From Lactobacillus sp. ESL0791 (lineage in GTDB: Bacteria; Bacillota; Bacilli; Lactobacillales; Lactobacillaceae): DNA of 64,000 bases. Below are positions 36,106-56,702 of the stretch, in pieces (position 1 is the first letter of the stretch; each line of letters begins with the position of its first letter). A program made the translations under genes and the position numbers. The notes below the pieces were generated by a model. The model did no database searches and was not told the origin of the DNA. It worked only from the letters and a program-made list of their open reading frames with translations. Location: the NCBI RefSeq assembly GCF_029433255.1, contig NZ_JAQTHU010000001.1, positions 1,984,001 through 2,048,000 of the forward strand, read 5' to 3'.

Positions 36106-37662
36106 CTAAAATTTTTGCCCGTATTTTTTCTTCAGCACGCTGTATAACTGTCGCGTAAACCAACCGGCAATCGCTTCAGTGTCATCGTTATGCCTGCCGG
36201 AATAACCTTTTGAGACCACATGCTGGTGCGAATAGTTTTTTTGTAAAAAAGCCATCAGCTGCGAATATGCCAGCTGATCATAATCATCATTTTTCATGTA
36301 ACCAAGCATAAAGGAAGTATTGCTAAAATCGCCTTGGTTTAAGGTATCCCACAACATTTGGTCCAACTTTTGACAAGAAGCTAGCTTGTTGTCACCCATG
36401 AGCATCATGACCATATCACTAGCACAGTGAAAGTCATCTGGCCGGTTAATTCGAAGATTTTCAGCAATTGTGCCCAAATTCAGCAGGATTTTGGCAATCA
36501 CGATTGCCCCAGGATTGAGCTGGGCACCGTAAAACATTGCTGCATAGGTACCCATCGACATCCCCGACAATACCAAATCTTTCACCGTGAAGTGCAGCTT
36601 AGCCAGGCAATCCTTAATCAGCCCTTTTATCTTGTCTTCCAATTCCTGATCACCAAGATAGAAACAGCCGCCTTCAACCCGCAAATCGGAAAGCAGCAGG
36701 TAGGGTACACCCTTTTTATGCAATATTCCCGTACCTTCAATCGCTTCGGCTGTATGGTAACCGCCAAAGTAAACGGTCAAGGGTGGTTTCATATTGCCGG
36801 GATTAAACAGGTAAGCAATCTCACCGCCAAGATAATTTTGGTCAATCAGTGACTGGCCGCCCAGTTCAATCAAGCCATATTTGCCGCGCGAACTGCGCTG
36901 GTGCATTGTTCCCAAGTGCACATGACCAGTTCCTCTTACATAATAACGCACACTGTAATAATAGCCGTCTGCTAGTCCCGTGACCTCAATCTTGCCATGA
37001 CTTGCCCGCAAATCTGCACCACTCTTCGAATACTTGGCAAGCAGCTTGTGCGTGTCGTTAACAGAAAAGCAACAAACCTCAATCTTTAGCTCCGCTTGCT
37101 CAAATTCCTTAAACTCAAGTGCAATTTCTGTGACAAAATCGTGGGGCACAAAGACACTGTATGTCAGCCTGCCTAAATAATGCCAATTATCAAAGGAACA
37201 TGTCACATCAATATAATTATTGCCAAAATAGGAAATGTTATTTTGCATTTCTGAAGGAATTTCCAACGAAAGAATTTTACCGCGGAGACCACCATTGTTA
37301 ATCGGATAAAAATAATGGTTAATCTCCATCAACAAATTTCCCAGTTTGATCTTAACAGCACCGCGAAAATCCAAAATTTCCTGGATTTCGTCCGTCACCA
37401 CTGCATCATCGGTATACAAGATGCGGTGGGCAGGCAGCTGCCGCAGCAGCTGCGGCTGGGTCAGCCAAGGCGAAGTCTGGTCAAGAACAAAATATTCAAA
37501 ACTATAATCGAAATTAAAGACCTTGTCTTTAAAAACAGGCGCCAAGTGGTGGCTGGCAAGATTAGCCGGCTCAGCCCACAGGTAAGTGCAGTCAGTTAAT
37601 GCCTTATCGGATAGCTCCAATGCTTTTTTTCCGCTATGAAACAGGCACCGTTTTTTATTCAT
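36106..37662 (-). CDS. asp2: Accessory Sec system protein Asp2
   Basis: 518 residues. The C-terminal half is an alpha/beta-hydrolase with the nucleophile motif GMSMGTYAAMFYGA near residue 365 and a histidine in YSGRHNDDTEAIAGWF near the end, as in Asp2, which O-acetylates glycans on the serine-rich substrate and is needed for its export. The N-terminal half is the beta-rich Asp2 domain. Overlaps the asp1 end by 8 bases; last gene of the operon, followed by a terminator. Confidence 0.9.
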   Translation of the reverse strand: MNKKRCLFHSGKKALELSDKALTDCTYLWAEPANLASHHLAPVFKDKVFNFDYSFEYFVLDQTSPWLTQPQLLRQLPAHRILYTDDAVVTDEIQEILDFRGAVKIKLGNLLMEINHYFYPINNGGLRGKILSLEIPSEMQNNISYFGNNYIDVTCSFDNWHYLGRLTYSVFVPHDFVTEIALEFKEFEQAELKIEVCCFSVNDTHKLLAKYSKSGADLRASHGKIEVTGLADGYYYSVRYYVRGTGHVHLGTMHQRSSRGKYGLIELGGQSLIDQNYLGGEIAYLFNPGNMKPPLTVYFGGYHTAEAIEGTGILHKKGVPYLLLSDLRVEGGCFYLGDQELEDKIKGLIKDCLAKLHFTVKDLVLSGMSMGTYAAMFYGAQLNPGAIVIAKILLNLGTIAENLRINRPDDFHCASDMVMMLMGDNKLASCQKLDQMLWDTLNQGDFSNTSFMLGYMKNDDYDQLAYSQLMAFLQKNYSHQHVVSKGYSGRHNDDTEAIAGWFTRQLYSVLKKKYGQKF

Positions 37663-39121
37663 TGAGAACTACCGCCTTCCATTTATCTATAATCTTCCCT
37701 GGTGAAAGCTGTTCAATCAACCTAACATTTTCTACTACGGCCGAATTCCATTTGGACAAATCCGTCAAAAACGGCAGCAGCAATTTATCTAAATGGGCAT
37801 CTTTTTCAAGCAAAAAGCCATTCTCACCGACTTTAACCAGGCCATTGCCCTGCCGCACGATCTGAGGAATACCGGTCTTGACGGCTTCCAACTGCAAATT
37901 ATAATCAGAATAAACAGCAGTATCTAAGAAGAGGTAAGCTTTTTTGAGCAAAACAGCTTCTTGTTCATAATTTAGCTGCTCTTTACAAGAAAAACGCTTA
38001 ATCACGTCTACTTGCTGCTGGTCATCCTTATCCGGCTGTTCCAGTTTTTGCTGATATTTTCCCAGAAATTTACGCTTGCGTGTTTGCAGGTATTTTGCCT
38101 GCTCGCCAGCAGCATCGGCAAACAGATTATAATTGGGATTTTCTCCCAGCAGCTTCATCAACTGGCTAAAAATACTTTTTAGTGCGGCATCACTAACCTG
38201 ACCCACATGCCAGTAAATCGTTCTCTGTTCAAATTCCATGCTCGTACCCAAGGCAAATTCAGCGAAGTATGGCTTAATCACGTGACAAATCGGCATAAAT
38301 CTTATGCCGCATTCCCTGCTTTTTTCAAGAAAAAGATTTTTCTGCGTTTCATTTTGAAACAAATAATAATCCTGGCCCATGATTGAACTAAAATCATTAT
38401 TTAATAATTGCTGTTGCTCAGTAAAGTAATAATAAAATTGCGTCTGCAGCAAAAAATGCCGCAGCGCCAATGTCTCTGAGCTTGGTTCAGCAATCGCCTT
38501 GCCCTTGTCTGCTAAATGACGCAGGGCAAATTCACTGATCACCTCGGCTAAACTACCATACTTCTTTTGCTTAAAGCGAAAGCTCTGGCTTGAGGCAATC
38601 GTCACCCGATAATCTTTCAGCGTCATGACCAGGTCACCAGCAGGATTGAACCACTGCTTTTTAATCACAGCACCTTCTTGATTAAAAAAGCTGCGGCTCC
38701 TGCGAAAGCCCCGCAAATCATAATCATCAACAATCTTTCCTGCACTGCGAAAATAGCTGACATGGGTGACTTGTCCATTTGGATCCAGCAGCACGTCCAT
38801 CACATATTTTTCACCATCGTATATCTGCAAGCCAATCCCGTTAAAGTAGATAATTTCTTCAACAACATATTTATCAGGAATATGCAAATCGGCAACAGTT
38901 AGAGCAGAACCGCTTGAATTAACAGCTAAAATTTCGTCAAAAAGATAGACTGCCGTTTGCCCGCTGCGGGCAAGCTGATCATAGTATTTATCCGCCTCTT
39001 CCGTGGTAATCAGCAGCTGGGTAGCAACGCCTGCTTCGCGAAAATATTCTGCCAGATTCAACAGTGTATTTTGATGATAAAAATTATTGCTCAAGCGCAT
39101 GTCAGGAATTAGTGTCAACAT
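37655..39121 (-). CDS. asp1: Accessory Sec system protein Asp1
   Basis: 488 residues starting LTLIPDMRLSNNFYHQNTLLNLAEYFREAG. It has a glycosyltransferase-like GT-B fold without the usual catalytic motifs. The family-typical stretches DLRGFRRSRSFFNQEG, QKKYGSLAEVI and, near the end, TAVYSDYNLQLEAVKTGIPQIV are visible. Asp1 forms a complex with Asp2 and Asp3 that binds the glycosylated adhesin and brings it to SecA2. Located directly after SecY2, as in streptococcal loci. Confidence 0.9.
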   Translation of the reverse strand: MLTLIPDMRLSNNFYHQNTLLNLAEYFREAGVATQLLITTEEADKYYDQLARSGQTAVYLFDEILAVNSSGSALTVADLHIPDKYVVEEIIYFNGIGLQIYDGEKYVMDVLLDPNGQVTHVSYFRSAGKIVDDYDLRGFRRSRSFFNQEGAVIKKQWFNPAGDLVMTLKDYRVTIASSQSFRFKQKKYGSLAEVISEFALRHLADKGKAIAEPSSETLALRHFLLQTQFYYYFTEQQQLLNNDFSSIMGQDYYLFQNETQKNLFLEKSRECGIRFMPICHVIKPYFAEFALGTSMEFEQRTIYWHVGQVSDAALKSIFSQLMKLLGENPNYNLFADAAGEQAKYLQTRKRKFLGKYQQKLEQPDKDDQQQVDVIKRFSCKEQLNYEQEAVLLKKAYLFLDTAVYSDYNLQLEAVKTGIPQIVRQGNGLVKVGENGFLLEKDAHLDKLLLPFLTDLSKWNSAVVENVRLIEQLSPGKIIDKWKAVVLNE

Positions 39122-39156: not shown

Positions 39157-40368
39157 TTACTTTAAATTAATCACGTATCTTTGTTCACTGTGCAGCGTAC
39201 GAAACTGCTGCACAATCATATAAACAATGGTCAATAAAATAAACAAATTACCAATAAAGGGGGTCAAGTTGGCTAGGTCTGGATGCCAGAGTCCTAACAA
39301 AAGCGGCCAAACACTCAGCAAAATCAGGAAAAAGCTGCTGAGCCAAGTCAGGCGCACAAATTTATTCATAATAAATTTTTCCGTGGCAGTTCCCGGAATG
39401 ATATTATAAAAATAACTGCCGTTTTCTTTTAGTTCCCTTGCCCGCACACTCGGCTGAAGCATAATCAGCCCAAAAACAAAGTTTAAAGAAATAATGGTAA
39501 TAATGTAGAGCAGGATGCCAATCGGCTGATTAATTGCCAACAACGGCAGAAGCTGTTTTTTCCAGCCAAACGAACTTTTCACCAGCAGCAGCGGCAAAAA
39601 GATAAAGAGCGAGGTTGAAAACATAAACGGCATCGCCCCCGCCATCAATAATTTCAAGGGAAAATATAATTTAGCATAAACATTGTCAAGCTGGGGATCA
39701 CTCATCGGAATCCGCTCTTCGGCCTGCACCAAGGCAAGCCCAGCCGTCAAGGTGACGATAACTGCCAACACCAGAAAAATAATATTAAGCCAAGTGAATT
39801 CAAATTTATTATTACCCCAGCCCCGAATCAACAGCGCCGGCAGCGAAATGATCAGCTGAGGCACCATCAAGACAGAGGAGCCGCCAACCCCGTATTCAGA
39901 AACTAAGTTGGCAATAAAAACTGAGGCCATGCCCCCACTCACCAGCAGCAGCAGTGTCAGCATAAAACTGATGTTAGCCCCTTTGAAATAGACGGGCAAA
40001 AGGGCACCACGAAAATTATAAGTGTAAAAAAATGCCTGTAAAATTGCAACAAGCAAACTGCAAAAATTGGTCACCACGCCCCAAAAATAACTTGATACTT
40101 GCCTTAGGCTTTTTAGATCCAGCGAATTGACCGCCTGCAAGACAATGTTAGCGGTCATATAGGGACCGATACCCAGCATGAACAGTGACGGCCGGCTAGT
40201 TTGCGCGCCCGTATACATTCCCAGCACACTAATCAACGGGTTGCCTTTCAGGTAGCCCATAGCGGCTTTGGGCCTAACAAATGGAATCAGCAGAAACTGC
40301 CCGAAAAGATAGACCATTAGGAGCAGCACTGTCCACAGCATTCGTTTTTGTAAAAAATTTGCCTTCAC
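39157..40368 (-). CDS. secY2: Accessory Sec translocase channel SecY2
   Basis: About 403 residues with ten hydrophobic helices. I chose GTG 40368 because AAAGGAA lies a suitable distance upstream; a TTG at 40377 sits right against that ribosome site. LLLMVYLFGQFLLIPFVRP, SLFMLGIGPYMTANIVLQ and FFYNIIPGTATEKFI are SecY2-type segments. SecY2 forms the membrane pore reserved for serine-rich repeat proteins. The channel lining is shorter than in SecY, as is normal for the family. Confidence 0.92.
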   Translation of the reverse strand: MKANFLQKRMLWTVLLLMVYLFGQFLLIPFVRPKAAMGYLKGNPLISVLGMYTGAQTSRPSLFMLGIGPYMTANIVLQAVNSLDLKSLRQVSSYFWGVVTNFCSLLVAILQAFFYTYNFRGALLPVYFKGANISFMLTLLLLVSGGMASVFIANLVSEYGVGGSSVLMVPQLIISLPALLIRGWGNNKFEFTWLNIIFLVLAVIVTLTAGLALVQAEERIPMSDPQLDNVYAKLYFPLKLLMAGAMPFMFSTSLFIFLPLLLVKSSFGWKKQLLPLLAINQPIGILLYIITIISLNFVFGLIMLQPSVRARELKENGSYFYNIIPGTATEKFIMNKFVRLTWLSSFFLILLSVWPLLLGLWHPDLANLTPFIGNLFILLTIVYMIVQQFRTLHSEQRYVINLK

Positions 40369-40386
40369 CGCAGCCAATTCCTTTCC

Positions 40387-42738
40387 CTAAACAAAATAGA
40401 TTTGCATTCCTTTAACATTATTGCCGGTCACTTCCGAACAGAGAACATTGCGCATGATTTGCCGAGAAATATCGGCCTTCATACGGTCAAAACTTGCCAG
40501 GGCCTCTTTTTGGTATTCAAATAATGGATTGCTCTGTCCCGTTGCACGCTGGGCGGTAACTATGCGCAATGTCTCCAGATTGTCAACCTGATCGACCCAA
40601 GCATCGTCAATTGCCTTCACAATCGTTAAGCGCTGGTAATACTGCCAGGCATCTTCATTAACAATTTGCCGTTTTTTCTCTTTGAATGCCTGCATGGCAA
40701 TTTTATTTAAGAAACGGATATTGGCCGCAGCCGACGATAACCTGGTCTTTTTATTCACATAATCAGGCGTAATATTATCGCAAATGTATTCATTCACCGT
40801 CGCAGCACTCATCCGGTTGTCAGAAACAAACGTGATAATTGCCTTCTTGATGCTGTGAAGCACAACCTGCTCCAGTTCCTGGTTCATCTGCATGACTTCA
40901 CCGCGCACACGGTAGACAGCCTCCCGCTGCAGGCGGGCAATCTCACCGTATTCCAACACCATGAAACGGGTGCTCTGTTCATGATACTTGATATTATTTT
41001 GCAGACGGGCAAAAAGCCGTTGGTAGCGCCGCCGGCCTCTGCCGATTTCCTGCCTGCGATCCTTGGCATGACGCGCAAGGGTGTGCTTGATCTTTCTTGA
41101 AGGAAACTGCCGCACCAGATTATCCTGCAAAGAGGTAAAAAAGACGGTTGAGCCCGGATCTCCCTGACGGCCGGCCCGGCCGCGCAGCTGGTCATCAATC
41201 CGCTTAAGCGACATTTTTTCTGTTCCAATGACCAGCAATCCGCCTGCTCTTCTGGCTCTATCCGACAAGATAATGTCGGCACCGCGGCCAGCAAGTGAAG
41301 TAGAAACGGTCACCATCCCCGACTGACCGGCAATCTTGATCATTTCCGCCTCCTGTGCTGTCGAGCGTGCGTTAAGCAGGTTATGGGGAATATGTTCCTG
41401 CAGCAGCATTTCCGAATACAGGTTTGACAAGGTAAGCGAGCCGGTTTCGATCAAAACTGGCCGCTTGCGGCGATAATTTTTCTTAACCACCTCAAGGGAG
41501 GCATATAATTTTGCCTTCGCCGTATAAAAAACCCGGTCAGGCTCATCGCGGCGGATATTCGGCCGGTTGGTCGGAACGGCAACTACATTTAGATTATAAA
41601 CCCGCATCAATTCGCGCTTGTCACCCATCGCGGTTCCGGTCATTCCTGCCAGTTGGGGAAAGAGACGGAACAAGTTTTGGTAAGTAATCGTGGCGATTAC
41701 CTGAACTTTTTGGCTTGTCTCCAGTCCCTCCTTGGTTTCGATGGCCTGGTGGATGCCGGCTGACATCTCCATTCCGAGCAGTTTACGCCCGCTATTGGTG
41801 TCAATAAGGACCAATTTATTTTTTTCAAGCAAATAATCGCGGTCCCGTTGATATAACTGGCTGGCCTGCAGTGCAAACACCAGGTGGCCGTATAAATCCG
41901 CATATTTTTTATCGAGAATATCGCGGACACCAAAAAATTCATTAGCGTGCAGAATGCCTTCATGCAGGAACCAAACTTTTTTGCGATTAGAATTCAGGGC
42001 AAAATCAACATCTTCTTGGCAAATTTTGACAAACTTATCAGCTAGGCCCGGATAATTGGATTTTCCCTCCGGCCGCCCAGAGATCACCAGCGGCGTTGTT
42101 GCTAAATCCAGCAGCACTGAATCCACCTCATCAATCAGAGCAAAGCGAAATGGCGGCATATACTGCTTATTGACTGAACTGACTAGATTATTGGTTAAAT
42201 AATCAAAGCCAAAAGTTCCCCCATCAGTATAAACAATGTCATTGGCATAGAGCCCTTTCTTCGTCTTACCGGCATTATCACGCTCTTCTTTACTTTCCTG
42301 TGAAAAATTATAACCGATCTTTAGGCCCAGCCAGCGATAAACACGTCCCACATTGAGTGCATCGCGTTTCGCCAAATACAGATTGGCGGTGATCAAAAAG
42401 TTGCCCTTGCCCGTGAGCCCGTGCAGATACATTGGCATGGTAGCAGTCAGGGTTTTGCCCTCGCCTGTTTTCATTTCAATTACATTATGATACTGCATCG
42501 CTACGGCCCCAAAAATTTGCACGGGATAGGGTGTGAGGCCAATAACCCGCGAATCCGCCACACACACAACGGCATAAGCTTCCACGAGTAAGGAATTAAG
42601 GGAAACGCCCTGCCGCAGACGCCGCCGAAATTCTGCAGTTTTAGCACGCAATTTATCATCGCTTAATTTTTTATATTTATCTGTTAATTTAATAATCTCA
42701 GCGGTTTTGCACCAATAAAGATGATTTTTGATGTGCAT
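40387..42738 (-). CDS. secA2: Accessory Sec ATPase SecA2
   Basis: 783 residues. Walker A TGEGKT (91-96), DEAD-type FALIDEVDSVLLD, TSLAGRGADIIL and RIDDQLRGRAGRQGDPGST define a SecA ATPase. The length and the lack of the C-terminal zinc-binding tail identify SecA2. It drives export of the glycosylated adhesin through SecY2. It starts 9 bases after the small membrane protein gene and precedes secY2 by 9-18 bases. Confidence 0.94.
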   Translation of the reverse strand: MHIKNHLYWCKTAEIIKLTDKYKKLSDDKLRAKTAEFRRRLRQGVSLNSLLVEAYAVVCVADSRVIGLTPYPVQIFGAVAMQYHNVIEMKTGEGKTLTATMPMYLHGLTGKGNFLITANLYLAKRDALNVGRVYRWLGLKIGYNFSQESKEERDNAGKTKKGLYANDIVYTDGGTFGFDYLTNNLVSSVNKQYMPPFRFALIDEVDSVLLDLATTPLVISGRPEGKSNYPGLADKFVKICQEDVDFALNSNRKKVWFLHEGILHANEFFGVRDILDKKYADLYGHLVFALQASQLYQRDRDYLLEKNKLVLIDTNSGRKLLGMEMSAGIHQAIETKEGLETSQKVQVIATITYQNLFRLFPQLAGMTGTAMGDKRELMRVYNLNVVAVPTNRPNIRRDEPDRVFYTAKAKLYASLEVVKKNYRRKRPVLIETGSLTLSNLYSEMLLQEHIPHNLLNARSTAQEAEMIKIAGQSGMVTVSTSLAGRGADIILSDRARRAGGLLVIGTEKMSLKRIDDQLRGRAGRQGDPGSTVFFTSLQDNLVRQFPSRKIKHTLARHAKDRRQEIGRGRRRYQRLFARLQNNIKYHEQSTRFMVLEYGEIARLQREAVYRVRGEVMQMNQELEQVVLHSIKKAIITFVSDNRMSAATVNEYICDNITPDYVNKKTRLSSAAANIRFLNKIAMQAFKEKKRQIVNEDAWQYYQRLTIVKAIDDAWVDQVDNLETLRIVTAQRATGQSNPLFEYQKEALASFDRMKADISRQIMRNVLCSEVTGNNVKGMQIYFV

Positions 42739-42747
42739 TTTACTTCA

Positions 42748-42945
42748 TCATTTTAACTTAAGAAACGGAAGAATCATTCCGATGATGATAATCAGAGTAA
42801 ACACTCCGCTCAGCGAAATTATCAGCCATTCCGTTTTACTCCTGTGATTTTCTTCGGCTGGCAGCAACTGTTCTTTTTCCCGCGCCAAATCTTCACAAAT
42901 TTTCTTTGTGAGCGAATCTGTCATCAATACTTTTTTAAAAGTCAT
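42748..42945 (-). CDS. Small single-span membrane protein, SecE-like (Asp4/Asp5 position)
   Basis: 65 residues: a charged cytoplasmic N-terminal half (DSLTKKICEDLAREKEQLL) and one C-terminal membrane helix (WLIISLSGVFTLIIIIGMILPFL). ATG overlaps the gtfB stop by 4 bases. Shape and place resemble Asp4, the SecE-like partner of SecY2 in streptococci. No other Asp4/Asp5 candidate is seen in the locus. Assignment is by topology and context, not by clear sequence match. Confidence 0.6.
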   Translation of the reverse strand: MTFKKVLMTDSLTKKICEDLAREKEQLLPAEENHRSKTEWLIISLSGVFTLIIIIGMILPFLKLK

Positions 42946-43796
42946 TCGCTGACCCTCACTTTATCCAAGGGTACATCAAAACCCTTTAATTTTTCGTAAG
43001 CCGGCTTAGTAACATGAACTTCCGCAACGTACGGAATCCGGTTTGCCAAAATACCGTCCAAATTGCCACGAAGCTTGCCCGTGTCATCAACGGGATCTTC
43101 TGCTAAATAATATTTATTGGTCGATTTAGCATCCCGCAGGGCGAACAAGTCAACCCCGAGATAATTAATACTGACGGTATCTTGCGGACGCATCATTTTA
43201 CTAATCTGATCAACGTAAAAATCAACCAAATTATTATATCTATTGGTTACTTCATGCGTTGCCGGGTTCTCAACCGTGACAAAATTAAGTGCGCCGTCAT
43301 AATAAAAATACCTAATGACCGGTTGGCCTTCCATGTTGACAAATTCGATCTCTTGCAGCTGACCGTCTGAATAATACAGATGACTGTAGACTTTGCCGTC
43401 AGAAACATACTCTTCAACATAGTCAAGGCTGCCATCGGGATTCAGATAGCGAATATCCTGCGTTGCTCGCCTAGTATTAGGGAAAAGATATTCACGGGCA
43501 ATGAAAATCCCCTGATCATCAACAAAAATGCTGCCGTCCTTTTGCATCTGCACATAATCCATCGCAGGAATATTGACTTCATTAAAGTAGCGGTAGCTTG
43601 CCGGGTCATAAGTCCGGCCCGTAATGTGGTCAATCAGTGTGGTACCCTCAATGTCGTTCGCCTGCAAAAAATTGCGCATGTTCGGCATCGACGTCAAACA
43701 AAGAAGCTGGCCATGGTTTTTCTGCAGCCGCGTTTTGACCGCCTTAAAAACATCCGGATTTAAATTAACAGTTTCATTAACTAGTTCGTAATCCAT
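42942..43796 (-). CDS. gtfB: GtfB-like chaperone subunit of the adhesin glycosyltransferase, short form
   Basis: 284 residues from ATG 43796, chosen because GGAGG precedes it and it overlaps the gtfA stop by 20 bases. The central beta-rich part (EYVSDGKVYSHLYYSDGQLQ, VNMEGQPVIRYFYYDGALNF) matches GtfB, the subunit that activates GtfA for O-GlcNAc addition. Streptococcal GtfB is about 440 residues; here the protein ends after a partial C-terminal domain (GILANRIPYVAEVHV ... KVRVSE), so most of the second Rossmann half is missing. The neighbouring frame overlaps its stop by 4 bases, arguing for a stable short form and not a fresh break. Confidence 0.75.
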   Translation of the reverse strand: MDYELVNETVNLNPDVFKAVKTRLQKNHGQLLCLTSMPNMRNFLQANDIEGTTLIDHITGRTYDPASYRYFNEVNIPAMDYVQMQKDGSIFVDDQGIFIAREYLFPNTRRATQDIRYLNPDGSLDYVEEYVSDGKVYSHLYYSDGQLQEIEFVNMEGQPVIRYFYYDGALNFVTVENPATHEVTNRYNNLVDFYVDQISKMMRPQDTVSINYLGVDLFALRDAKSTNKYYLAEDPVDDTGKLRGNLDGILANRIPYVAEVHVTKPAYEKLKGFDVPLDKVRVSE

Positions 43797-45231
43797 CAAC
43801 CAGTTTCCTCCACTTCTTGGCAATTGCGCTGTCACGATACTCATCAATGCCGACCTGTGTATTCCGCCGCATCTGAACGTAATCCGCATTAAACAGACGA
43901 ACAATTCCTTCTTTAATTTGGGCAACGTTGAAATCGTCATCCTCACGCTTTAATTCCTGCACAAAGCCATTTTCACCGTCACGAATCAATTGGGTTGCCC
44001 CAAAGCGGGCATTAAACGTCACCACCGGCAAAGCGGCATTTAGTGCCTCAATGTAAGTTAAACCGAAACCTTCAGAAAACGAAGTTGAGATAAAGGCATC
44101 ATATTTCGGATATACTTTTTCCAAATGCTGCGATAAGCCGCGCAAACGGATATAATCTTCAGCATGATAGTCCTTGATCATTTGCTCCAAATGCTTCTTT
44201 TCTTCGCCTTGACCATAAATATCAAAACTAATCTTATAACCCGCATCATGCAGCTGGGCCACAGCCCTAACCGCAACGTCAATATGCTTTTCCTTGGCCA
44301 GGCGCGAGGCCGTGATAAAGCGCAAGCCGTCCGGCTGCCGGTCCTTAATCACTTTGCTGCGGTCACTGATCCCGCCAACAGGAATAGCCCAGATCTTGTC
44401 TCCTTCTTTGGGGAAATCGATCAGCAAATCCTGACGCTGCTGCTCGGTGGAAACGACTACCCGATCAACCTTGTTCAAATGATCCAGCAGGTATTCATAA
44501 TAATTATTCCAAAACGGCTTTTTCGGGTCCACCCGGTCAGCCAAATGATCAGCATGGATCAGATAGATAATCTTCGCGTTCGGAATCTCGTCGTACATTA
44601 ACGCCTCATCGGCCCAATCGCCACGGTCAATGTAAAAATTGCTGTTGCTGCCAAAGAAACGATCCAGCTGGCAAAAAAAATAGTGGTATAACCGAACAAT
44701 ATTGGCAAAATACAGGTGCTCTCCGTGCTCCGAGTACAGATGGATATTTTGCATTCGCGCCTGTTCATGTGCATTGTCAAGCGTCTCGAAGGCAACCTTG
44801 AGCTCACCTGTTTGGCTGTTAAAAATCTGCGTACGGTATGCTCTAACCATTAAAAGTTTGCTTTCCGGCTTTTGCTTATTTTTGCCTTTAACAAAGTGAT
44901 TGACAATCCGCAAGCCGGAAGAGGCGTACTGCTCGTTCATCCGCACGGTATTGGTGCTGTCGACTAAAGAGCGCACTTTTTTCGCAGGGAAAGTTTTGGT
45001 CAAACCTTTTTTTAAATAATCATCGCCCCAGACAAAATATTCCCACATATTAATGACATTTTGGCTTTTCAAGCGCCACTTGGTCATTGCTTCATGCAAT
45101 TCCGGCACCATACCCAGAAAAACAAACCGATAGGGAATTTGGGCTCGCGCAAAACTTTTAGCACGATAAAATTCGGCATGTTCAATTCCAGAATTTCCCA
45201 TGCCCATCGCTTGATTAACAAAAAAATCCAT
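43777..45231 (-). CDS. gtfA: GtfA, O-GlcNAc transferase for the serine-rich adhesin
   Basis: 484 residues of family GT4. FITASRLAKEKHIDVAVRAV is the donor-site start and STSFSEGFGLTYIEALNAALPVV holds the E-x7-E catalytic pattern. NQAMGMGNSGIEHAEFYRA at the N-terminus is typical of GtfA. It adds the first GlcNAc to serine or threonine of the adhesin in the cytoplasm, working with GtfB. Ribosome site AGAGG. Confidence 0.9.
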   Translation of the reverse strand: MDFFVNQAMGMGNSGIEHAEFYRAKSFARAQIPYRFVFLGMVPELHEAMTKWRLKSQNVINMWEYFVWGDDYLKKGLTKTFPAKKVRSLVDSTNTVRMNEQYASSGLRIVNHFVKGKNKQKPESKLLMVRAYRTQIFNSQTGELKVAFETLDNAHEQARMQNIHLYSEHGEHLYFANIVRLYHYFFCQLDRFFGSNSNFYIDRGDWADEALMYDEIPNAKIIYLIHADHLADRVDPKKPFWNNYYEYLLDHLNKVDRVVVSTEQQRQDLLIDFPKEGDKIWAIPVGGISDRSKVIKDRQPDGLRFITASRLAKEKHIDVAVRAVAQLHDAGYKISFDIYGQGEEKKHLEQMIKDYHAEDYIRLRGLSQHLEKVYPKYDAFISTSFSEGFGLTYIEALNAALPVVTFNARFGATQLIRDGENGFVQELKREDDDFNVAQIKEGIVRLFNADYVQMRRNTQVGIDEYRDSAIAKKWRKLVDGLRTS

Positions 45232-45242
45232 TTTATCCTCTA

Positions 45243-46025
45243 TTACTTATTTTTACCAATATCATGCCGTAATGCTCCAAGCAATTCGGTTGCTATATAA
45301 CTATTATCAATCTGCAAAATAATTCCATTTCTGCGAAAAGAATTCAAATATCTTGCCAGCGCCGTTAATTGTTCAGTACTAAATTTACCTTCACCGGTAT
45401 ATTGGACCGGAATGAAAATAAACAAATGATCTTCTTGTGCGGTAAAACTAACTGTTTGAATCGTTGACGTATAATTTTGAAGATGAACATTCAGACGGTT
45501 ACTTTTCCGTGCAGCAAAGCAAACCTTAATAATGCGAATTCCGGCAATATTTTCGACCACAAAAGTGTAATGGTCGAGAATCGGCGCTTCGGCCAGTAAG
45601 CAAACTTTAAAGCGCATTTTCTGATTATTTAAACTAACTAAGTCAAACTGATAACTAGCAGTCTGCCGCGGAAGATGAAAAGTACCATCTTTTGCCGGAA
45701 AGATTTTGTAACCCAATTGTTGGTGCCTGTCATCATACGTTGTCAAAGCTAAGGCAAGAGAGCCTTTAGGCTCTTCCTCACTCTCAAGCTTAAACTGGTA
45801 ATCAACTGTAAACAACAATTTAGGTAAGGATAGACTTGAAATATGCTCACCGCTCACAACCGGATAGTACAGCCAGGAAACAAGTGCTTTCCCCGGCGAA
45901 ACAATTGCATTTTTATACAAAAGATCTTCACCAGCGAAGCTGACCTGAGCACCATATAAATAAACATAGCTCATATTCTGTGGCCGGAAAAAAAAGTGCG
46001 CCGTCAGTTTTTTATCGTCTGCCAT
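45243..46025 (-). CDS. asp3: Accessory Sec system protein Asp3, with a long C-terminal extension
   Basis: About 260 residues from ATG 46025. The N-terminal ~150 residues (YLYGAQVSFAGEDLLYKNAIVSPGKALVSWLYYP ... LLFTVDYQFKLES) match Asp3, which joins Asp1 and Asp2 in the export complex. The last ~100 residues, with a further beta-rich stretch and NSFRRNGIILQIDNSYIATELL, extend it. It stands apart from asp1/asp2, on the other side of gtfA. Its start overlaps the previous ORF by 14 bases. Confidence 0.7.
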   Translation of the reverse strand: MADDKKLTAHFFFRPQNMSYVYLYGAQVSFAGEDLLYKNAIVSPGKALVSWLYYPVVSGEHISSLSLPKLLFTVDYQFKLESEEEPKGSLALALTTYDDRHQQLGYKIFPAKDGTFHLPRQTASYQFDLVSLNNQKMRFKVCLLAEAPILDHYTFVVENIAGIRIIKVCFAARKSNRLNVHLQNYTSTIQTVSFTAQEDHLFIFIPVQYTGEGKFSTEQLTALARYLNSFRRNGIILQIDNSYIATELLGALRHDIGKNK

Positions 46026-46797
46026 CAACGTAAATGTCCTGAATCAGTTTGGCAGGCGGCAGGCACTCTTCAACCGATAAAATTTCCCGGTTATGTTCGA
46101 TTAGCAGCTGCGACAAAACCGAAAGAACATTCCGACGCGGACCAGCAATTAATTGAAGACCAGTTTCATCACCAAATTCTAACTTTAATTTGGCTGGGAA
46201 AACGTCTTCCGTTATACTGGGCAGACCATGCAGAACAACGCATGTTCGTTGCAGTTCACTATCCTGTACAATTTTCTGCCAGGCAGCATTGATTAGCTGC
46301 CAATCGGTTTGGGCTTCAAGCCAGACAACTTCGGCCTGTTTATAAATCACATAAGCATCTACCTGGACCTGCTCATCATCCGTGTGCATGCCGCTCGCCA
46401 TCAGGATCGACTGCTTGCTCAAATTTGCCCGAACCTGAACCTGATTTTCCATGTTGAATGCCATGTAGCTGACATACCAGGTATCGGCTTTGGTCAAATT
46501 CCGCAAAACCAAATATTTTCCTTCCTCAACCACAGGAGCGGCATATTTGGCCACAATATTCTTATCTGTTGCATCGGTAAAAAGCAGATTCTGATTTTTT
46601 TCATCCCAGTGCCAGCACCGCTCTTCCGGATAAAAACCGATATTTGACGGAAAACCCAAGGTATGATCACGGTTAAGCCTGATGATTAAAATAGCGTCGC
46701 TATTGTCTCCCATGCAAATCATCATTTTTTCTTTACCGGTTTTATAAATAAAATCATGGTCAGCGCAAAGCGCCAACATCTCTTCCTCAGTCATCAT
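46012..46797 (-). CDS. Uncharacterised protein of the accessory Sec locus
   Basis: About 261 residues from ATG 46797 (AGAGG upstream; a GTG at 46803 is an alternative). I recognise no enzyme motif. The segment RCWHWDEKNQNLLFTDATDKNIVAKY looks like the beta-rich accessory domain seen in some surface-polysaccharide glycosyltransferases. The second half (VDAYVIYKQAEVVWLEAQTDWQLINAAW) is mixed alpha/beta. No signal peptide or membrane span. Tight coupling to asp3 and the glycosyltransferase upstream suggests a role in glycosylation or export of the adhesin. Confidence 0.6.
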   Translation of the reverse strand: MMTEEEMLALCADHDFIYKTGKEKMMICMGDNSDAILIIRLNRDHTLGFPSNIGFYPEERCWHWDEKNQNLLFTDATDKNIVAKYAAPVVEEGKYLVLRNLTKADTWYVSYMAFNMENQVQVRANLSKQSILMASGMHTDDEQVQVDAYVIYKQAEVVWLEAQTDWQLINAAWQKIVQDSELQRTCVVLHGLPSITEDVFPAKLKLEFGDETGLQLIAGPRRNVLSVLSQLLIEHNREILSVEECLPPAKLIQDIYVDGRR

Positions 46798-46809
46798 TCT
46801 CACCTCTGC

Positions 46810-47535
46810 TTATTTAAATTTAAACCAGGATTTTACGGCCGTATCATTATACATAAATTTGGTTGTTACTTTGCGCCCATGACACAAGCGGTTATTAAAG
46901 TAGTTATAGGCGATGTAATTAACCAGTGCCACTTCAAAGCCCGCAAAGCGAATATTTCCCTGATCCAAATACTTTTGAACAGTGTCATCGGTATACAGCT
47001 TGATAAAAATACCTAAGAATTCCAGCAGTGTTTCCCGCGTGCCGGCAAGCACGCCCGAATTCAACAGCTGCAAGTATTTATTGCGATTATTAAAATCAAT
47101 CAGGTAATCCGGCTGATCCTGCTTGCTAGTGATAACTGAATTATTGAGATCATTAAATTCGTCGCCAATATACAAAATATTGTCCTCAATATCTGCAAAG
47201 GGATAATTCAGCATCTCTACATTATCCAGATCAACCAGCGCCACTTTATCGATATCACTATTTTTGAGCAGATACTCGTAAACAATCTCCCACTTGCCAA
47301 ACATCAATTTGGCCTGGGGATAACGAGCAAAGCGCGGACAATAAACGGCCTTAACCAGCGGCGGCAGCTTCTGCTCATTTTGGAAATTAATCAGGATATC
47401 AGTTTCAACATTGAAACGTCTTACTGAATCTATTACCTTTTGCGCAATTTCCGCAATATTAATTTCTTTATGCACAATGGTATATTGTGAATCAACCATA
47501 TTAGTAAGATATTCGGCAATAACTACATTCTTCAT
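46810..47535 (-). CDS. Glycosyltransferase of GT-A type, probably extends the adhesin glycan
   Basis: 241 residues. The metal/nucleotide-sugar motif D-L-D (102-104) sits in DKVALVDLDNVEML, typical of small GT-A transferases. LLNSGVLAGTRETLLEFL and GFEVALVNYIAYNYF are consistent with acceptor-site segments. First gene after the adhesin, separated from it by a strong hairpin. It most likely adds a second sugar to the GlcNAc laid down by GtfA. The sugar donor is unknown. Confidence 0.72.
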   Translation of the reverse strand: MKNVVIAEYLTNMVDSQYTIVHKEINIAEIAQKVIDSVRRFNVETDILINFQNEQKLPPLVKAVYCPRFARYPQAKLMFGKWEIVYEYLLKNSDIDKVALVDLDNVEMLNYPFADIEDNILYIGDEFNDLNNSVITSKQDQPDYLIDFNNRNKYLQLLNSGVLAGTRETLLEFLGIFIKLYTDDTVQKYLDQGNIRFAGFEVALVNYIAYNYFNNRLCHGRKVTTKFMYNDTAVKSWFKFK

Positions 47536-47658: not shown

Positions 47659-50600
47659 TTACTTTTTCTCAAAATTAGCAGCCAAGATATAACGACCGTG
47701 TCCAGCATGATAGTACTTTTCGCCGTTAATTAATCTTGTACTGTAAATCTTAATCTTTCTGCCTTTCTCCAGCACTTCAGTTCCGATGCGCACGCCCCGT
47801 TCACTGTAAACATAAGCATTATGCGCTAGCTCAAGCTCGGAACCAACAAAGTTGCCAGTGGCCAAATACCTGCCAAAATGAATACTGTAAAATTCACGGC
47901 CAGCGATCTTAACCGTTTCGTAGGTCTTAATCTTCTCGCCTTTCTTAAGTACTTCTCTTTCTATTCGGTTACCATCCGCATCGTAAACGTAGGCATCATG
48001 CTTCAGTATTAGTTCAGACCCCACAAAGTTGCTGGCAATTACATATTGGCTATTACCAATGTAGTAAAAATACTTGTCATTAATTAATACTTTCTCGCCA
48101 TAGGTCTTAACAAGTGAATTCCTTGCCAAAATTAACGTCCCAATCCTTTTCCCCAGCTGATCATAGAAACCTGCATTGTGATGCAACTTTCTAATGGTGC
48201 CCTTAGCAGCAGCCGTATTGGAACTTGTGACAGTACTGCAATTATTATTGCACCCATAATCAGTCGCCGAATATGCGCTGCTATTATCTGTAGCACTGCT
48301 TAGACTGAAGCTCCTACTGGCACTGGTTGATGTCGCTTTGCTCAAGGATGCAGCCAGGCTCAGCACCGCTGAACTGGAAACCGAACTTGATAGAAAAGAA
48401 CTCAATGAACTTGAGAACAGTTTTGAATATGACAGACGTAATAACTGGGAACTAGCACTAGAACTGGCCGCTAAACTGAGCTGGAAACTGGCTGGGTTCT
48501 TTGATTCACGGGCCAAATTGCTAGATGAGGCAGTTAAAATACTCTTTGACGAAGATAAGCCGCTTAATGCAGATGACAGATTAACTTTTGACTGCGTACT
48601 CAGCGAGCTGGAAGCGGTTGACGAACTGGACAAGCTGGAACTCAAACTTGAAGAACTGGTCAGTTTCGACAACTGGGAATTAGCACTAGCACTGGGTTTT
48701 GAACTTAACTGGGAACTGGCTGGGTTCTTTGAACCGTTAGTCAAACTGCTAGATGACGCAGATGAATCAGTTTGTGATAATAAGCCGCTCAAGGCAGATG
48801 ACAGATTGACTTTTGACTGTGCACTCAGCAAACTGGAAGTGGTTGACGAACTGGACAAGCTGGAACTTAAATTTGAAGAACTGGTCAGTTTCGGCAACTG
48901 GGAATTATCGCTAGCACTGGTATTTGAACTTAACTGGGAACTGGCTGGATTCTTTGAGCCGCTAGTCAAACTGCTAGATGACGCAGATGAATCAGTTTGT
49001 GATAATAAGTCACTCAAGGCAGATGACAGATTGACTTTTGACTGTGCACTTAGCGAACTGGAAACGGTTGAAGAACTGGTCAAGCTGGAACTCAAATTGG
49101 AAGAACTGATCATTTTCGACAACTGGGAACCAGCACTGGTCTCTAAACTAAGCTGAGAACTGGCTAAGTTTTTTGATTCACGGGCCAAATTGCTAGATGA
49201 AGCAGTTAAGATACTATTTTCCAGGGATAAGCTGCTTAACACAGATGACAGATCAACTGTTGTTTTTGCACTGGACAAACTGGAACTCAAGTTTGAAGAA
49301 CTAGACAATTCCGCTAGCTGGGAACCATTAGAACTAGTCTTTAGACGGAGTTGGGAATTGGCTGAATTCTTTGAATCGCTGACCAAACTGTTAGATGATG
49401 CAGCTATGGCACTTTGCGCTAATAAACTGCTTAAGGCAGATGACAGATCAGCTTGCGGCTGGACACTTTGCAAGCTGGAAGCGGCCGATGAACTAAATAA
49501 TCTCGACAATTGTAAACTAGCACCAGCACCTGTCTTAGAATTGAGCTGGGAACTGGTTGGATTCTTTGAGCCGCTGGTCAAACTATCAGATGATGCCGCT
49601 GCGGCACTCTGCGATAATAGGCTGCTGACCAGAGAGGACAATAACAAACTTAGTGAACTGGAATTAGCTATACTTGAAAGGCTAGAAGATAAAGCCGCCG
49701 AAGATTGACTTGATAAAAGTGAGCGTAAACTAGAGCTTTGCTTTGAACTCAATGAGCTAAATGAACTGGAGAGGCTGGAGGAAAGACTCAAAGACACAAT
49801 TACTGAAGTTGATGAACTAGCCGACAATGATGCAGTCAGACTGGATGATATGCTTGAGAGACTCGAACTCAATAAACTAGAGCTGACTGCACTTGACAGG
49901 CTTGATGACATAGCAGAAGATGATAAATACGACTTCAATGAACTTAAAGCTGCTGAAGACAAACGGGAAGATGCTAAAAAACTGTCTGAAATTGAACTAG
50001 ACAAAAACGAACTTAAACTAGACGAAGCAGTTAAGGAATCAATTTGCGACGATAAGCTGCTTAGCGCAATCGATAATTCAGTGCTTGCTTGCAAGCTGGA
50101 TCGACGGGAAGATGCTAATGAACTGCTCAAAGCCAGGCTAGATAATGAGGATCTCAAACTAGATAACGCAGCTGCGGACTTCGAACTTAACAAACTTAAA
50201 CTCAAACTAGACGATAAACTCATTAAGCTAAAACTGGACAAACTTGAGGATAACACTGAAGATGACAGACTAGACAGCAACGAGTTCAAACTTAAACTTG
50301 ATGCCAAACTTAAGGAATCAGCCGCACTTGACAAAGCTGAGCTTCGGCTAGTGCTTAATGAATAGTCAGATAAAGAAGACCGTGAATTATCTCCAGGTAA
50401 ACTTCCAATACCTGCATTCATTGTTGAGTCAGACGACAAAGAACTAGCATTAAGATTTGATATAGCTGCACGCAGCGAAGAGTTGGATTGGCTTAATTCG
50501 ATGCCGCGTGAAGTCATCTCAGAATAATTTTTACTTGCAAAACTAGATGCACTCATACTTGCAATTGCAGAAGTGGCGACAGAAGAATGATTAGTATTAC

Positions 50601-51060
50601 CCAAAGGATTTTTAGTTTCTGAATTTGGAACAAAATCATTAAAAGATGTGTGGCTGACGCTCACATTATTACCCGTAATCGAAGACAAATTAGAGGATGC
50701 TGCCGACTGCGTTGCAGCGGACGAAGCAGACATATTCATTGATTGATTGTCATCAACAGTCGTGTCAACTTCTTCTACAAATGATTCAGTAACAAACATT
50801 GGCTGGGTATTTTCAGATGTAGGAATAGTTGCTGCTTGTCCATTATCTAGCAAGTGCTCACCATACGGCGGTTGTACCTTTGGCGTGCCCATCGCAACAT
50901 ATGTAGGTTTCAGGGGATGACTAATAAGACCGTCCGATAGGCTGTCAAGATCGGCGATGTTAGCGGTTAATACGTCCTGTCCAGACGCATTTGCTTTTTC
51001 AGCTTTATTTTTTTCAATTAGCTGTTCTTCTGACTTTCTTTCTTGATCTGAACTCTTCAT
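47659..51060 (-). CDS. Serine-rich repeat surface protein with three C-terminal SLAP modules, no recognisable signal peptide
   Basis: About 1133 residues from ATG 51060 (a TTG at 51075 is in frame); the ribosome site is poor. Residues 1-110 are charged and then mixed, with no hydrophobic stretch and no K-x-Y-K-x-G-K-x-W signal. From about 115 to 950 the protein is a Ser/Leu/Ala-rich repeat region (SSSLSS-type), including about six longer imperfect repeats. The last ~184 residues are three SLAP modules of about 60 residues (each H-x-A-x-V/F-Y-D, then KTYGE or KIKTYE, then G-x-x-x-Y-x-x-x-x-NF), which bind cell-wall polymer in lactobacilli. No LPXTG is present. Flanked by a full SecA2/SecY2/Asp/Gtf set, so it is the expected export and glycosylation substrate. 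Confidence 0.85.
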   Translation of the reverse strand: MKSSDQERKSEEQLIEKNKAEKANASGQDVLTANIADLDSLSDGLISHPLKPTYVAMGTPKVQPPYGEHLLDNGQAATIPTSENTQPMFVTESFVEEVDTTVDDNQSMNMSASSAATQSAASSNLSSITGNNVSVSHTSFNDFVPNSETKNPLGNTNHSSVATSAIASMSASSFASKNYSEMTSRGIELSQSNSSLRAAISNLNASSLSSDSTMNAGIGSLPGDNSRSSLSDYSLSTSRSSALSSAADSLSLASSLSLNSLLSSLSSSVLSSSLSSFSLMSLSSSLSLSLLSSKSAAALSSLRSSLSSLALSSSLASSRRSSLQASTELSIALSSLSSQIDSLTASSSLSSFLSSSISDSFLASSRLSSAALSSLKSYLSSSAMSSSLSSAVSSSLLSSSLSSISSSLTASLSASSSTSVIVSLSLSSSLSSSFSSLSSKQSSSLRSLLSSQSSAALSSSLSSIANSSSLSLLLSSLVSSLLSQSAAAASSDSLTSGSKNPTSSQLNSKTGAGASLQLSRLFSSSAASSLQSVQPQADLSSALSSLLAQSAIAASSNSLVSDSKNSANSQLRLKTSSNGSQLAELSSSSNLSSSLSSAKTTVDLSSVLSSLSLENSILTASSSNLARESKNLASSQLSLETSAGSQLSKMISSSNLSSSLTSSSTVSSSLSAQSKVNLSSALSDLLSQTDSSASSSSLTSGSKNPASSQLSSNTSASDNSQLPKLTSSSNLSSSLSSSSTTSSLLSAQSKVNLSSALSGLLSQTDSSASSSSLTNGSKNPASSQLSSKPSASANSQLSKLTSSSSLSSSLSSSSTASSSLSTQSKVNLSSALSGLSSSKSILTASSSNLARESKNPASFQLSLAASSSASSQLLRLSYSKLFSSSLSSFLSSSVSSSAVLSLAASLSKATSTSASRSFSLSSATDNSSAYSATDYGCNNNCSTVTSSNTAAAKGTIRKLHHNAGFYDQLGKRIGTLILARNSLVKTYGEKVLINDKYFYYIGNSQYVIASNFVGSELILKHDAYVYDADGNRIEREVLKKGEKIKTYETVKIAGREFYSIHFGRYLATGNFVGSELELAHNAYVYSERGVRIGTEVLEKGRKIKIYSTRLINGEKYYHAGHGRYILAANFEKK
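48400..49680 (-). repeat. Imperfect tandem repeats inside the serine-rich protein
   Basis: A unit of roughly 65-76 codons recurs about six times. Landmarks are the near-identical plus-strand stretches around 48487, 48715, 48943, 49158, 49358 and 49551. Each encodes a block like SKNPASSQLS followed by SSNLSSSLSS and VNLSSALS. Spacing shrinks from about 228 to 193 bases toward the N-terminal side, pointing to unequal-crossover growth. Confidence 0.7.
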
Positions 51061-51075
51061 GTTTTCTACCCACAA

Positions 51076-51483
51076 CCCGAAACAACGACCGTTAGCTGCT
51101 GCCTATTACTTATTAGCAGTTAAAACTAAACTGCTATTTATATATAGTTCACTTAATAAATATCTTAAATATTTAAATTACGTAACTAACTGTACTTGTC
51201 TAATCTATTATAACGCTATGAAGCATAGATGCAACAATCGTTCATGTCGTGCGTTGTAAATAAAAGAATAACAAGCTATTAAGTTTTTTTAATTACTAAT
51301 AATTTTATAAAAGCAAATTCGCTATATTTATTTGAATTAATTTTATTATAATACCTCAATTAAGTTGGCACAAACTTACAGCCGCCGACCTAAAAATACT
51401 GGCAGTTATTGTTGAAAATTTGCTGATTTTCCATCTAAACTACAAAATTTAAAGCAAAACTACGTTTCTCTCTAGCTTACCTT
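51076..51483. other. Upstream region of the serine-rich protein gene
   Basis: Contains the promoter at 51207-51234 and a 7-bp stem hairpin (AGCAGTT 51115-51121 with AACTGCT 51129-51135) in the ~140-base leader. All three minus-strand frames between promoter and start are closed by stops, and none encodes a signal peptide. The 51240-51480 part is AT-rich with nothing else recognisable. Confidence 0.6.
51207..51234 (-). promoter_or_regulatory. Promoter of the serine-rich protein / accessory Sec operon
   Basis: On the minus strand TTGCAT (51229-51234) and a perfect TATAAT (51207-51212) stand 16 bases apart. The predicted start near 51200 gives a leader of about 140 bases, long enough for control by the hairpin described in the region entry. 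Confidence 0.6.
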
Positions 51484-51792
51484 TTATTTAAATTCCAGCC
51501 AAATGACAAGCACTACTAGCAGCAGTTTTATCAGAAAATGACTCCAGTTAATCTTGCCCAGCACCAGTTTGCCATTCAGAACGCCTGCAAGCAGCATTAA
51601 AACCAGGCCAGCAACCAACGAGTAAACATTAACCTGCTGCAGAAGCATTAGGACACCAGCAAGTAAGTTCAAAACCAAGAGCCAGGCCGGTGTTTTGCCC
51701 TTATTTACTTTAAAATAGGAATAACAGTTGCTGCCCAAAAACAGCACGGCATACAGGTAAACTATGACCTCAGTGATAATTTTTAACATCAT
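51484..51792 (-). CDS. Small membrane protein coupled to the MFS exporter
   Basis: About 101-102 residues, three or four hydrophobic segments (TEVIVYLYAVLFLGSNCY, WLLVLNLLAGVLMLL, SLVAGLVLMLLAGVL, FLIKLLLVVLVIWL). Two consecutive ATGs overlap the TGA of the MFS gene, with AAGGAG upstream. Family not recognised. Co-expression with the MarR-regulated exporter suggests an accessory role. Confidence 0.75.
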   Translation of the reverse strand: MMLKIITEVIVYLYAVLFLGSNCYSYFKVNKGKTPAWLLVLNLLAGVLMLLQQVNVYSLVAGLVLMLLAGVLNGKLVLGKINWSHFLIKLLLVVLVIWLEFK

Positions 51793-55924: not shown

Positions 55925-56702
55925 TTATTTTTTACGTCCAAAATTTCCTTTCCTTACATATTGCTTATTACCAACGATGTAATATTCCTTGTCATTGATC
56001 ATCACAGTGTCGCCGTAAGTCTTCACCTTTTTGCCCTTCTTCAGCTTCTTCTTTAGACGGTCACCGTCCTGGTCGTACACACAGGCATTGCGCTTAAGTT
56101 TACGCTTTTGCGCATCAATATTTTCTGCCGGTAAATAAACGTTGTCATCGACAACATAGTAAGATTCTTTATTAATCGTTGCTTTGCCGTAAGTTTTAAT
56201 CTGAGAGCCAGCCCGCAGCAGCACCTGATCAAGCTGACTGCCCGTACCGTCATACCGGTAGGAATCATGCATCAAGGTCTTTTCAACTGCCGGGATTGTC
56301 TCCGGCTCATTTTGTGCCGGCAGCGGTGTCTTCCATTCTCCTGTTGGCGGGAAATTATTCTTCTTAATGTATTGATTTTTCCCTACTTGGAAATATTGCT
56401 TGCCGCGAATTGTTACCGGTTCGCCGTAAACCGTGACCTCCATGCCTCTCGGAAGAACATGCTTATCTTTTAGTTTGCCATTGCGTTTATAAATATAAGC
56501 ATTATGGATCAGCTTCACCTTGGTGCCTGTGACGTTGCTTGACGGGATGTAATCATTGCTATGGCTGATATTAACAGTATTCTCACCATTAATTACCTTA
56601 CTGCCTTGAGTCGGAACAACTGAACCGCTAGCAATAATCGTACCGTCAGTCTTGCCGCTAGGATCATAAACAGGTGTATCGTGCCCAATCACTACATTAT
56701 TA
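55925..56702 (-). other. Four SLAP wall-binding modules of the giant adhesin
   Basis: Units of about 57-78 residues start near NNVVIGHDTPVYD, TKVKLIHNAYIYKRNG, EKTLMHDSYRYDGTG and RKLKRNACVYDQDG. Each continues with a short G-x-x-V-x-T/V-Y-G core and ends in Y-x-x-x-x-NF or a variant. They resemble the three modules of the serine-rich protein at 47662-48213, so both proteins likely share one wall ligand. Confidence 0.85.

Follow-up and report, generated by a model that had tools for sequence, protein, structure and literature searches.

The window examined here is a stretch of 64,000 nucleotides from Lactobacillus sp. ESL0791 (contig NZ_JAQTHU010000001.1, positions 1984001–2048000 of the forward strand; G000:C1 in our numbering, G000 being the window's own genome). 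It contains a gene for a serine-rich repeat protein (SRRP), here called SRRP1, beside an accessory Sec locus. The SRRP1 product ends in SLAP modules in place of an LPXTG anchor, as in related genomes, and it begins without the hydrophobic signal that its relatives carry. The parts of the gene and of the adjoining locus, with positions counted from the first nucleotide of the window, are as follows.

47659..51060, minus strand: SRRP1, serine-rich repeat protein, 1,133 residues from the ATG at 51060 (1,138 from the TTG at 51075)
50884..50988, minus strand: SRRP1 residues 25–59, homologous to the signal peptide of the relatives and hydrophilic here (ASGQDVLTANIADLDSLSDGLISHPLKPTYVAMGT)
48271..50760, minus strand: SRRP1 serine/leucine-rich region, residues 101–930 (42% Ser, 16% Leu)
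47662..48189, minus strand: C-terminal 176 residues of SRRP1, three SLAP (PF03217) modules
45243..46028, minus strand: Asp3 (PF15432, 51.7 bits)
43777..45231, minus strand: GtfA-like glycosyltransferase (GtfA model, 240.7 bits)
42942..43796, minus strand: short GtfB-like protein, 284 amino acids (GtfB model, 34.7 bits)
40387..42738, minus strand: SecA2 (TIGR03714, NF006630)
39157..40377, minus strand: SecY2 (PF00344, TIGR02920)
37655..39121, minus strand: Asp1 (PF16993, 56.4 bits)
36106..37662, minus strand: Asp2 (PF16929; TIGR03712, 372.3 bits)

The SRRP1 reading frame is open from 47659 to either start codon, and the ATG gives a protein beginning MKSSDQ..., an MKSS start being found also in a relative (G015). 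Its serine content of 42% over 830 residues compares with 32–43% in ten relatives, and the region includes a tandem repeat of 225 bp in 3.1 copies (48443–49137). The three SLAP modules named in the original prediction are borne out by three stretches matching PF03217 with 138.2 bits (cut-off 23), which run to the C-terminus where an LPXTG motif would otherwise be expected; a Pfam scan of SRRP1 returned no domain besides these. We considered whether the leucines arose by C-to-T decay and rejected this because the codon counts do not fit, with TTA and TTG together at 96 and TTT and TTC at 12 (TCA and TCG number 106, TCT and TCC 101).

The locus itself is, as predicted, an accessory Sec locus, with SecA2 and SecY2, Asp1 to Asp3, a GtfA-like gene and a short GtfB-like gene beside the SRRP gene. 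SecA2 scores 882.7 bits against TIGR03714, below the cut-off of 930, and 881.5 bits against NF006630, above the cut-off of 862; SecY2 scores 134 bits against PF00344 (cut-off 32.2) and 184.4 bits against TIGR02920, below its cut-off of 249.6. Asp1, Asp2 and Asp3 all exceed their Pfam cut-offs (PF16993, 56.4 bits; PF16929, 357.3 bits; PF15432, 51.7 bits), and with the NCBIfam models Asp2 lies above the cut-off while Asp1 (127.5 of 136.1 bits) and Asp3 (59.2 of 67.25 bits) lie under it, as do the GtfA-like (cut-off 574.6 bits) and GtfB-like (cut-off 338.3 bits) proteins. Of an SRRP in general, O-glycosylation and export by accessory Sec would be expected.

To place the locus among its relatives we searched 75 genomes of the genus, the window's own included. 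Asp2 is matched in 21 of them, and eight of these (G000, G010, G015 and G072–G076; hereafter the clade) have accessory Sec of the window type, with Asp2 41–60% identical to that of the window in the other seven. The GtfB-like protein is equally short, 283–289 amino acids, in all seven relatives. SecA-type matches in a contig scan reach at most 52% identity among the matches listed. The LPXTG-type anchor (PF00746) is present in 64 of the 75 genomes, all of them among the 67 outside the clade; none of the eight within it gives a match. Sortase (PF04203) is present in 68 of 75 and in 66 of the 67 genomes outside the clade, and is absent from six of the eight within it, with a single weaker match in G072 (48.8 bits) and in G010 (51.0 bits). 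Anchoring by SLAP modules is thus, from these profiles, a trait of the clade and not a peculiarity of the window, and the loss of LPXTG anchoring may be the reason why SLAP took over; as the eight genomes are related, that loss need not have happened eight times and may be one event. We also tried the absence of the K-x-Y-K-x-G-K-x-W signal (PF19258) as a mark of the clade and rejected it: the family is found in 7 of the 75 genomes and in none of the clade, and is equally absent from the 13 Asp2-positive genomes outside it. Against PF19258 the window's genome gives, with its second SRRP, a match of 15.7 bits, under the cut-off.

The sibling SRRPs of the clade whose starts we read share a compact, glycine-rich signal of the form RNLLAAGTAGIGGILGGLL...AHA/A (for example FKRNLLTAGTAGIGGILGGLLSAPQTAHAA), which measures 47–57 residues to the A-x-A junction in 13 sibling SRRPs, as read by eye. 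A profile built from nine sibling N-termini, with the window excluded, matched 32 places in 9 of the 75 genomes at E <= 0.001. We took as the signal family the 18 places scoring at least 36 bits, which include the window at 36.7 bits; one member (G076:C11) ends with its contig after 62 codons, so that any serine-rich part would lie outside. The other 14 places (20.7–30.5 bits) were set aside, and the four of these that we inspected are two SLAP proteins of the window's genome (one with 16% Ser), a start in G075 and a YSIRK-type start in G014; a different search added one more SLAP protein of the window's genome, making three. Seventeen of the 18 members begin with such a signal, their best 15-residue Kyte–Doolittle mean (KD15) being 1.28–1.69.

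SRRP1 is the remaining member. The KD15 of its first ~125 residues reaches only 0.49, which agrees with the original prediction that a hydrophobic signal is absent, and the DNA upstream does not supply one. As far as 51483, the three frames upstream contain, the gene's own frame apart, only stop-to-stop pieces of at most 27 codons, and the most hydrophobic stretch (IIIKLIQINIANLLL, KD15 1.97) lies within a 16-codon piece in a frame other than that of SRRP1. K-x-Y-K-x-G-K-x-W was found neither in these frames nor in the first 120 residues of SRRP1. A signal hidden behind a frameshift, which the original prediction had named as its refutation, or in a lost upstream exon is therefore not seen in these frames, and no direct or inverted repeats of at least 12 nucleotides, as might mark an invertible or recombining 5′ end, occur at 51000–51480. 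A weak scan of the minus strand at 51060–51500 gave no sigma-70-like promoter. The ribosome site had been called poor, a description that does not hold: its computed pairing with the anti-Shine–Dalgarno sequence, at −7.1 kcal/mol, falls among the values for 13 relatives (−3.7 to −10.3 kcal/mol).

The head of SRRP1 is, judged by homology, altered and not missing. The nine-sibling profile finds its N-terminus at E = 1e-8 over positions 2–80 of 81 (and that of the genome's second SRRP at 3.5e-17), so that the homologous signal segment is present in frame and the proposed loss of the head is not supported. Over the 34 codons of the core, the proportion of nonsynonymous differences (pN) between the window and six relatives is 0.43–0.48, with 7–11 of 34 residues identical, as against 0.12–0.20 and 25–29 of 34 in five pairs of relatives. 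At the five columns where all six relatives have glycine the window has D, D, S, D and G. The differences consist of many in-frame substitutions and one inserted codon, and the residual identity exceeds that of shuffled residues (P = 5e-5 for best identity, 2e-4 for columns matching any relative). Before the core, pN is 0.31–0.35 with five of the six relatives, within the 0.23–0.55 found among the relatives themselves, and 0.60 with G015, in a shifted alignment; after the core it is 0.24–0.32, compared with 0.10–0.27 among relatives. Because the excess is concentrated in the core, with only a smaller excess after it, the change is centred on the core. Nor is it supported that a missing signal is a property of the system, as 17 of 18 members retain theirs, the second SRRP of the same genome included. 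Of the suggestion that this is a variant system with an unusual export signal and a non-covalent anchor, the SLAP anchor and, in the relatives of the eight-genome clade, the short glycine-rich signal therefore stand, and the absence of a signal as a trait of the system does not.

We regard it as fairly probable, from the sequences compared, that SRRP1 is an export-dead copy within a variant of accessory Sec that uses SLAP anchoring. Across the eight genomes, in which the genes, signals and anchors are present, accessory Sec would export glycosylated serine-rich proteins through the compact glycine-rich signal peptide, and the SLAP modules would hold these on the wall, presumably because the lineage gave up LPXTG anchoring. 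The core of SRRP1 would have become non-hydrophobic by in-frame substitutions, with the encoded protein most likely not exported; export by way of the hydrophilic segment is unsupported by the comparisons made here. The machinery would serve other substrates in trans, in the first place the second SRRP, and would for that reason be under ordinary selection. It looks constrained much as in the relatives: ratios of nonsynonymous to synonymous differences (pN/pS) of the window, compared with that of the G010–G015 pair, are 0.22–0.25 and 0.25 for SecA2, 0.15–0.17 and 0.14 for GtfA, 0.22–0.26 and 0.21 for GtfB, 0.33–0.35 and 0.37 for Asp2, 0.37–0.45 and 0.41 for Asp3, and 0.31–0.36 and 0.27 for SecY2, where the difference is largest, all of these ratios being rough since synonymous sites are near saturation.

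The second SRRP gene, ~604 kb from SRRP1, runs on the minus strand from 1427313 down to 1413988 (~13.3 kb), with an intact signal (ARNWLAAGIGGLLGGMLGTQNTVHAA) and three SLAP modules at its end, and is a likely candidate substrate of the window's machinery. Its 4,442 codons form one frame except for a ~1.3-kb repeat patch, after which the frame returns. Separation of SRRP genes from the secA2 operon, or a place downstream of it, is seen in G072, G073 and G074 as well, and export in trans would on that account be normal in the clade. The SLAP-anchored, LPXTG-less variant system is a sounder finding than this account of the altered copy.

Several observations weigh against the export-dead reading. 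Besides the roughness of the ratios, the second SRRP as assembled has five in-frame stops at codons 1180–1318, within the repeats; these may be an assembly error or a real break, and in the latter case the candidate substrate would itself be broken. SRRP1 itself has zero stops in 1,133 codons, and its SLAP part shows a pN/pS of 0.32 with its three nearest relatives (G010, G015 and G074), the G010–G015 pair giving 0.31; the values are 0.37 with G073b and 0.45 with the second SRRP. The serine content, still at 42%, also speaks against a simple death of the gene, and the 225-bp repeat units differ at a ratio of nonsynonymous to synonymous rates (dN/dS) of about 0.5–0.6, which is weak evidence. 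We simulated neutral decay in 200 runs with an assumed GC content of 0.38 and an assumed transition weight of 3. At 0.5–0.7 substitutions per site, an upper estimate because part of the core difference lies on the branches of the relatives, a sibling core falls from 34 to 14–10 of 34, the SLAP part is left 0.38–0.28 identical to its start, and the SRRP1 reading frame acquires a mean of 38–44 stops (minimum 21 in 200 runs at 0.5); even at 0.1 per site 11.6 stops are expected (minimum 5). With no stops and a conserved SLAP part, neutral decay of the whole gene is hard to reconcile with SRRP1 and was rejected. The SLAP modules show no sign of having been refreshed from the second SRRP, from which they differ at a pN of 0.33 as compared with 0.25–0.26 from G010 and G074.

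A rival reading is a leaderless SRRP1 that still works, whether the hydrophilic segment, or the serine-rich part with Asp1–3, leads it to SecA2/SecY2, or it has an intracellular role, or it is released by lysis and rebinds through SLAP. The open frame, the conserved SLAP part, a pre-core part whose similarity to five of the six relatives equals that of the relatives among themselves (the post-core part being somewhat less similar) and a leucine enrichment that C-to-T decay does not explain all agree with this. So does the core: under drift at 0.5–0.7 substitutions per site, low hydrophobicity combined with four acidic residues arises at only 0.02–0.06, a criterion set after the core had been seen. 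Low hydrophobicity alone is frequent under drift, however, at 0.13–0.23, so that a change of the core directed toward hydrophilicity is possible but not shown by these figures. No Sec substrate of the SRRP type is known to us that lacks a hydrophobic core. GspB is routed to accessory Sec by glycines in the hydrophobic core of its signal (PMC5578698 and its reference 26), and the changes made in that work, three glycines to L, A and C, do not render the core hydrophilic (PMC5578698). We consider a working leaderless SRRP1 unlikely, and slightly less likely still the particular form in which selection keeps a leaderless serine-rich glycoprotein whose hydrophilic, acidic core is handled by accessory Sec or another route, with recognition through the N-terminal flanks, the glycosylated serine-rich part or Asp1–3.

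No more and no less probable than a working leaderless protein is a very recent pseudogene, in which the core changed fast, by recombination or a burst of substitutions, and the remainder has yet to decay. Such an event would reconcile the altered core with the intact frame, and a hint of slight acceleration is seen in the relative distance of the SLAP part, 1.55, the highest of seven comparisons (1.04–1.52 for six machinery proteins); the SLAP tree is discordant with the machinery trees and served for distances only. The core nonetheless still aligns to the family with one inserted codon, unlike a replacement by foreign DNA. Protein-database searches with the N-terminal regions of SRRP1 and of a G073 protein gave no match, and hence no donor (none at E <= 10 among 446 candidates); they missed even the SRRP1 gene itself and so carry little weight. 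A sequencing error, frameshift or wrong start that conceals a true signal peptide seems very improbable. Frame +1 over the altered core (50913–50966, minus strand) does hold an 18-codon hydrophobic stretch (PLTSPILTAYRTVLLVIP, KD15 1.35), where the same frame in six relatives reaches only 0.29–0.83, but it is closed by stops on both sides and bears no resemblance to the family, and the homologous segment lies in frame 0, differing by substitutions and one whole codon and not by frame-changing insertions or deletions.

Compared with known systems, the window shares with GspB and the Lactobacillus reuteri SRRPs a serine-rich region (42% here), secA2, secY2 and asp1–3, beside which it has gtfA-like and gtfB-like genes. 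It departs from them in the three SLAP modules that replace LPXTG in the clade, in a GtfB-like protein of ~284 amino acids and, in the window's copy, in the want of a hydrophobic core; the clade signals, of 47–57 residues and without K-x-Y-K-x-G-K-x-W, compare with the 55–101 amino acids that, together with an LPXTG anchor, are given for gut SRRPs in passages of a review (PMC6973325). The pseudo-SRRPs of gut bacteria described there, in which the LPXTG anchor is missing or the gene is split into several reading frames, resemble SRRP1 in adjoining accessory Sec and in missing a functional part, whereas SRRP1 retains a single frame and its anchor and loses the signal (PMC6973325). Giant YSIRK–SLAP surface proteins of bee-gut 'Firm-5' lactobacilli are, in the sections describing them, likewise large and held by C-terminal SLAP modules, and differ from SRRP1 in a YSIRK signal, DUF1542 and two SLAP modules (PMC4449606); the words 'serine' and 'SecA2' do not occur in the text of PMC4449606. 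We recognised no description of a SLAP-anchored or leaderless SRRP in the literature searched, by titles, starts of abstracts and passages of mostly open literature. SssP1 of Streptococcus suis keeps its signal and has extra N3 and SRR-3 domains where SRRP1 has SLAP. Like SRRP1, it is an SRRP without LPXTG, and the review presents it as thought to attach to the surface by other means (PMC6973325).

The clade thus presents a form of accessory Sec parted from two substrate features given in passages of the review, the long signal and the LPXTG anchor (PMC6973325), and the exchange of LPXTG for SLAP indicates that wall-anchoring machinery can be replaced without loss of the adhesin family. A natural copy with an altered signal beside intact siblings offers a clean way to test the demands of the system on its substrates, and poses the question of whether a glycine-rich hydrophobic core is required, as the GspB work suggests, or the rest of the protein is enough.

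Two further genes lie between SRRP1 and asp3.

46810..47535, minus strand: P9, predicted glycosyltransferase whose model matches GT6-type alpha-1,3-galactosyltransferases
46012..46803, minus strand: P8, conserved protein, 29–50% identical to seven relatives

Neither Pfam nor NCBIfam gives a match to P9 at E <= 0.001; its AlphaFold model (predicted local distance difference test, pLDDT, 70.4; predicted template-modelling score, pTM, 0.77) matches GT6-type alpha-1,3-galactosyltransferases and blood-group transferases in Foldseek (151 matches at E <= 0.001, the best at 1.1e-6); going by this model, P9 may decorate the serine-rich protein with an outer sugar. P8 lies near SRRP genes, and its low-confidence model (pTM 0.44) matches no structure at E <= 0.001. 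Both P8 and P9 have homologues ~4.6 kb past the end of the second SRRP gene, from which three other genes separate them.

Elsewhere in the clade, G072 (L058, L099, L100, L101) has five SRRPs with the same type of signal, four of them at ~732–781 kb, downstream of the secA2 operon. G073 and G076 (L049, L051) each have two different accessory Sec systems of the window type, and the second of these (Asp2 49% identical) has its own SRRP, whose signal is NIVAAGTATIGGVLGG; neither gtfA nor gtfB was listed there in the interval from SRRP to secA2. Serine-rich arrays lose frame locally in two assemblies, G015 (L024/L022) and G000 (L097/L185), through slippage, a break or an assembly error. At ~886–898 kb of G000:C1 (L098 4372–15503) three SLAP proteins with a similar glycine-rich signal (as GRNLVVGAAAIGGLLGGVG) adjoin two GT4 glycosyltransferases with Asp1-like parts, and from their signals these three are possible further substrates of accessory Sec. 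At 55925–64000 of the window and beyond (L104 5426–17884, minus strand) lies a protein of 4,152 residues that starts past the window edge, with a YSIRK-type start and, by eye, SLAP-like C-terminal modules; its C-terminal part recurs at L104 18801–19838, so that a tandem array is likely.

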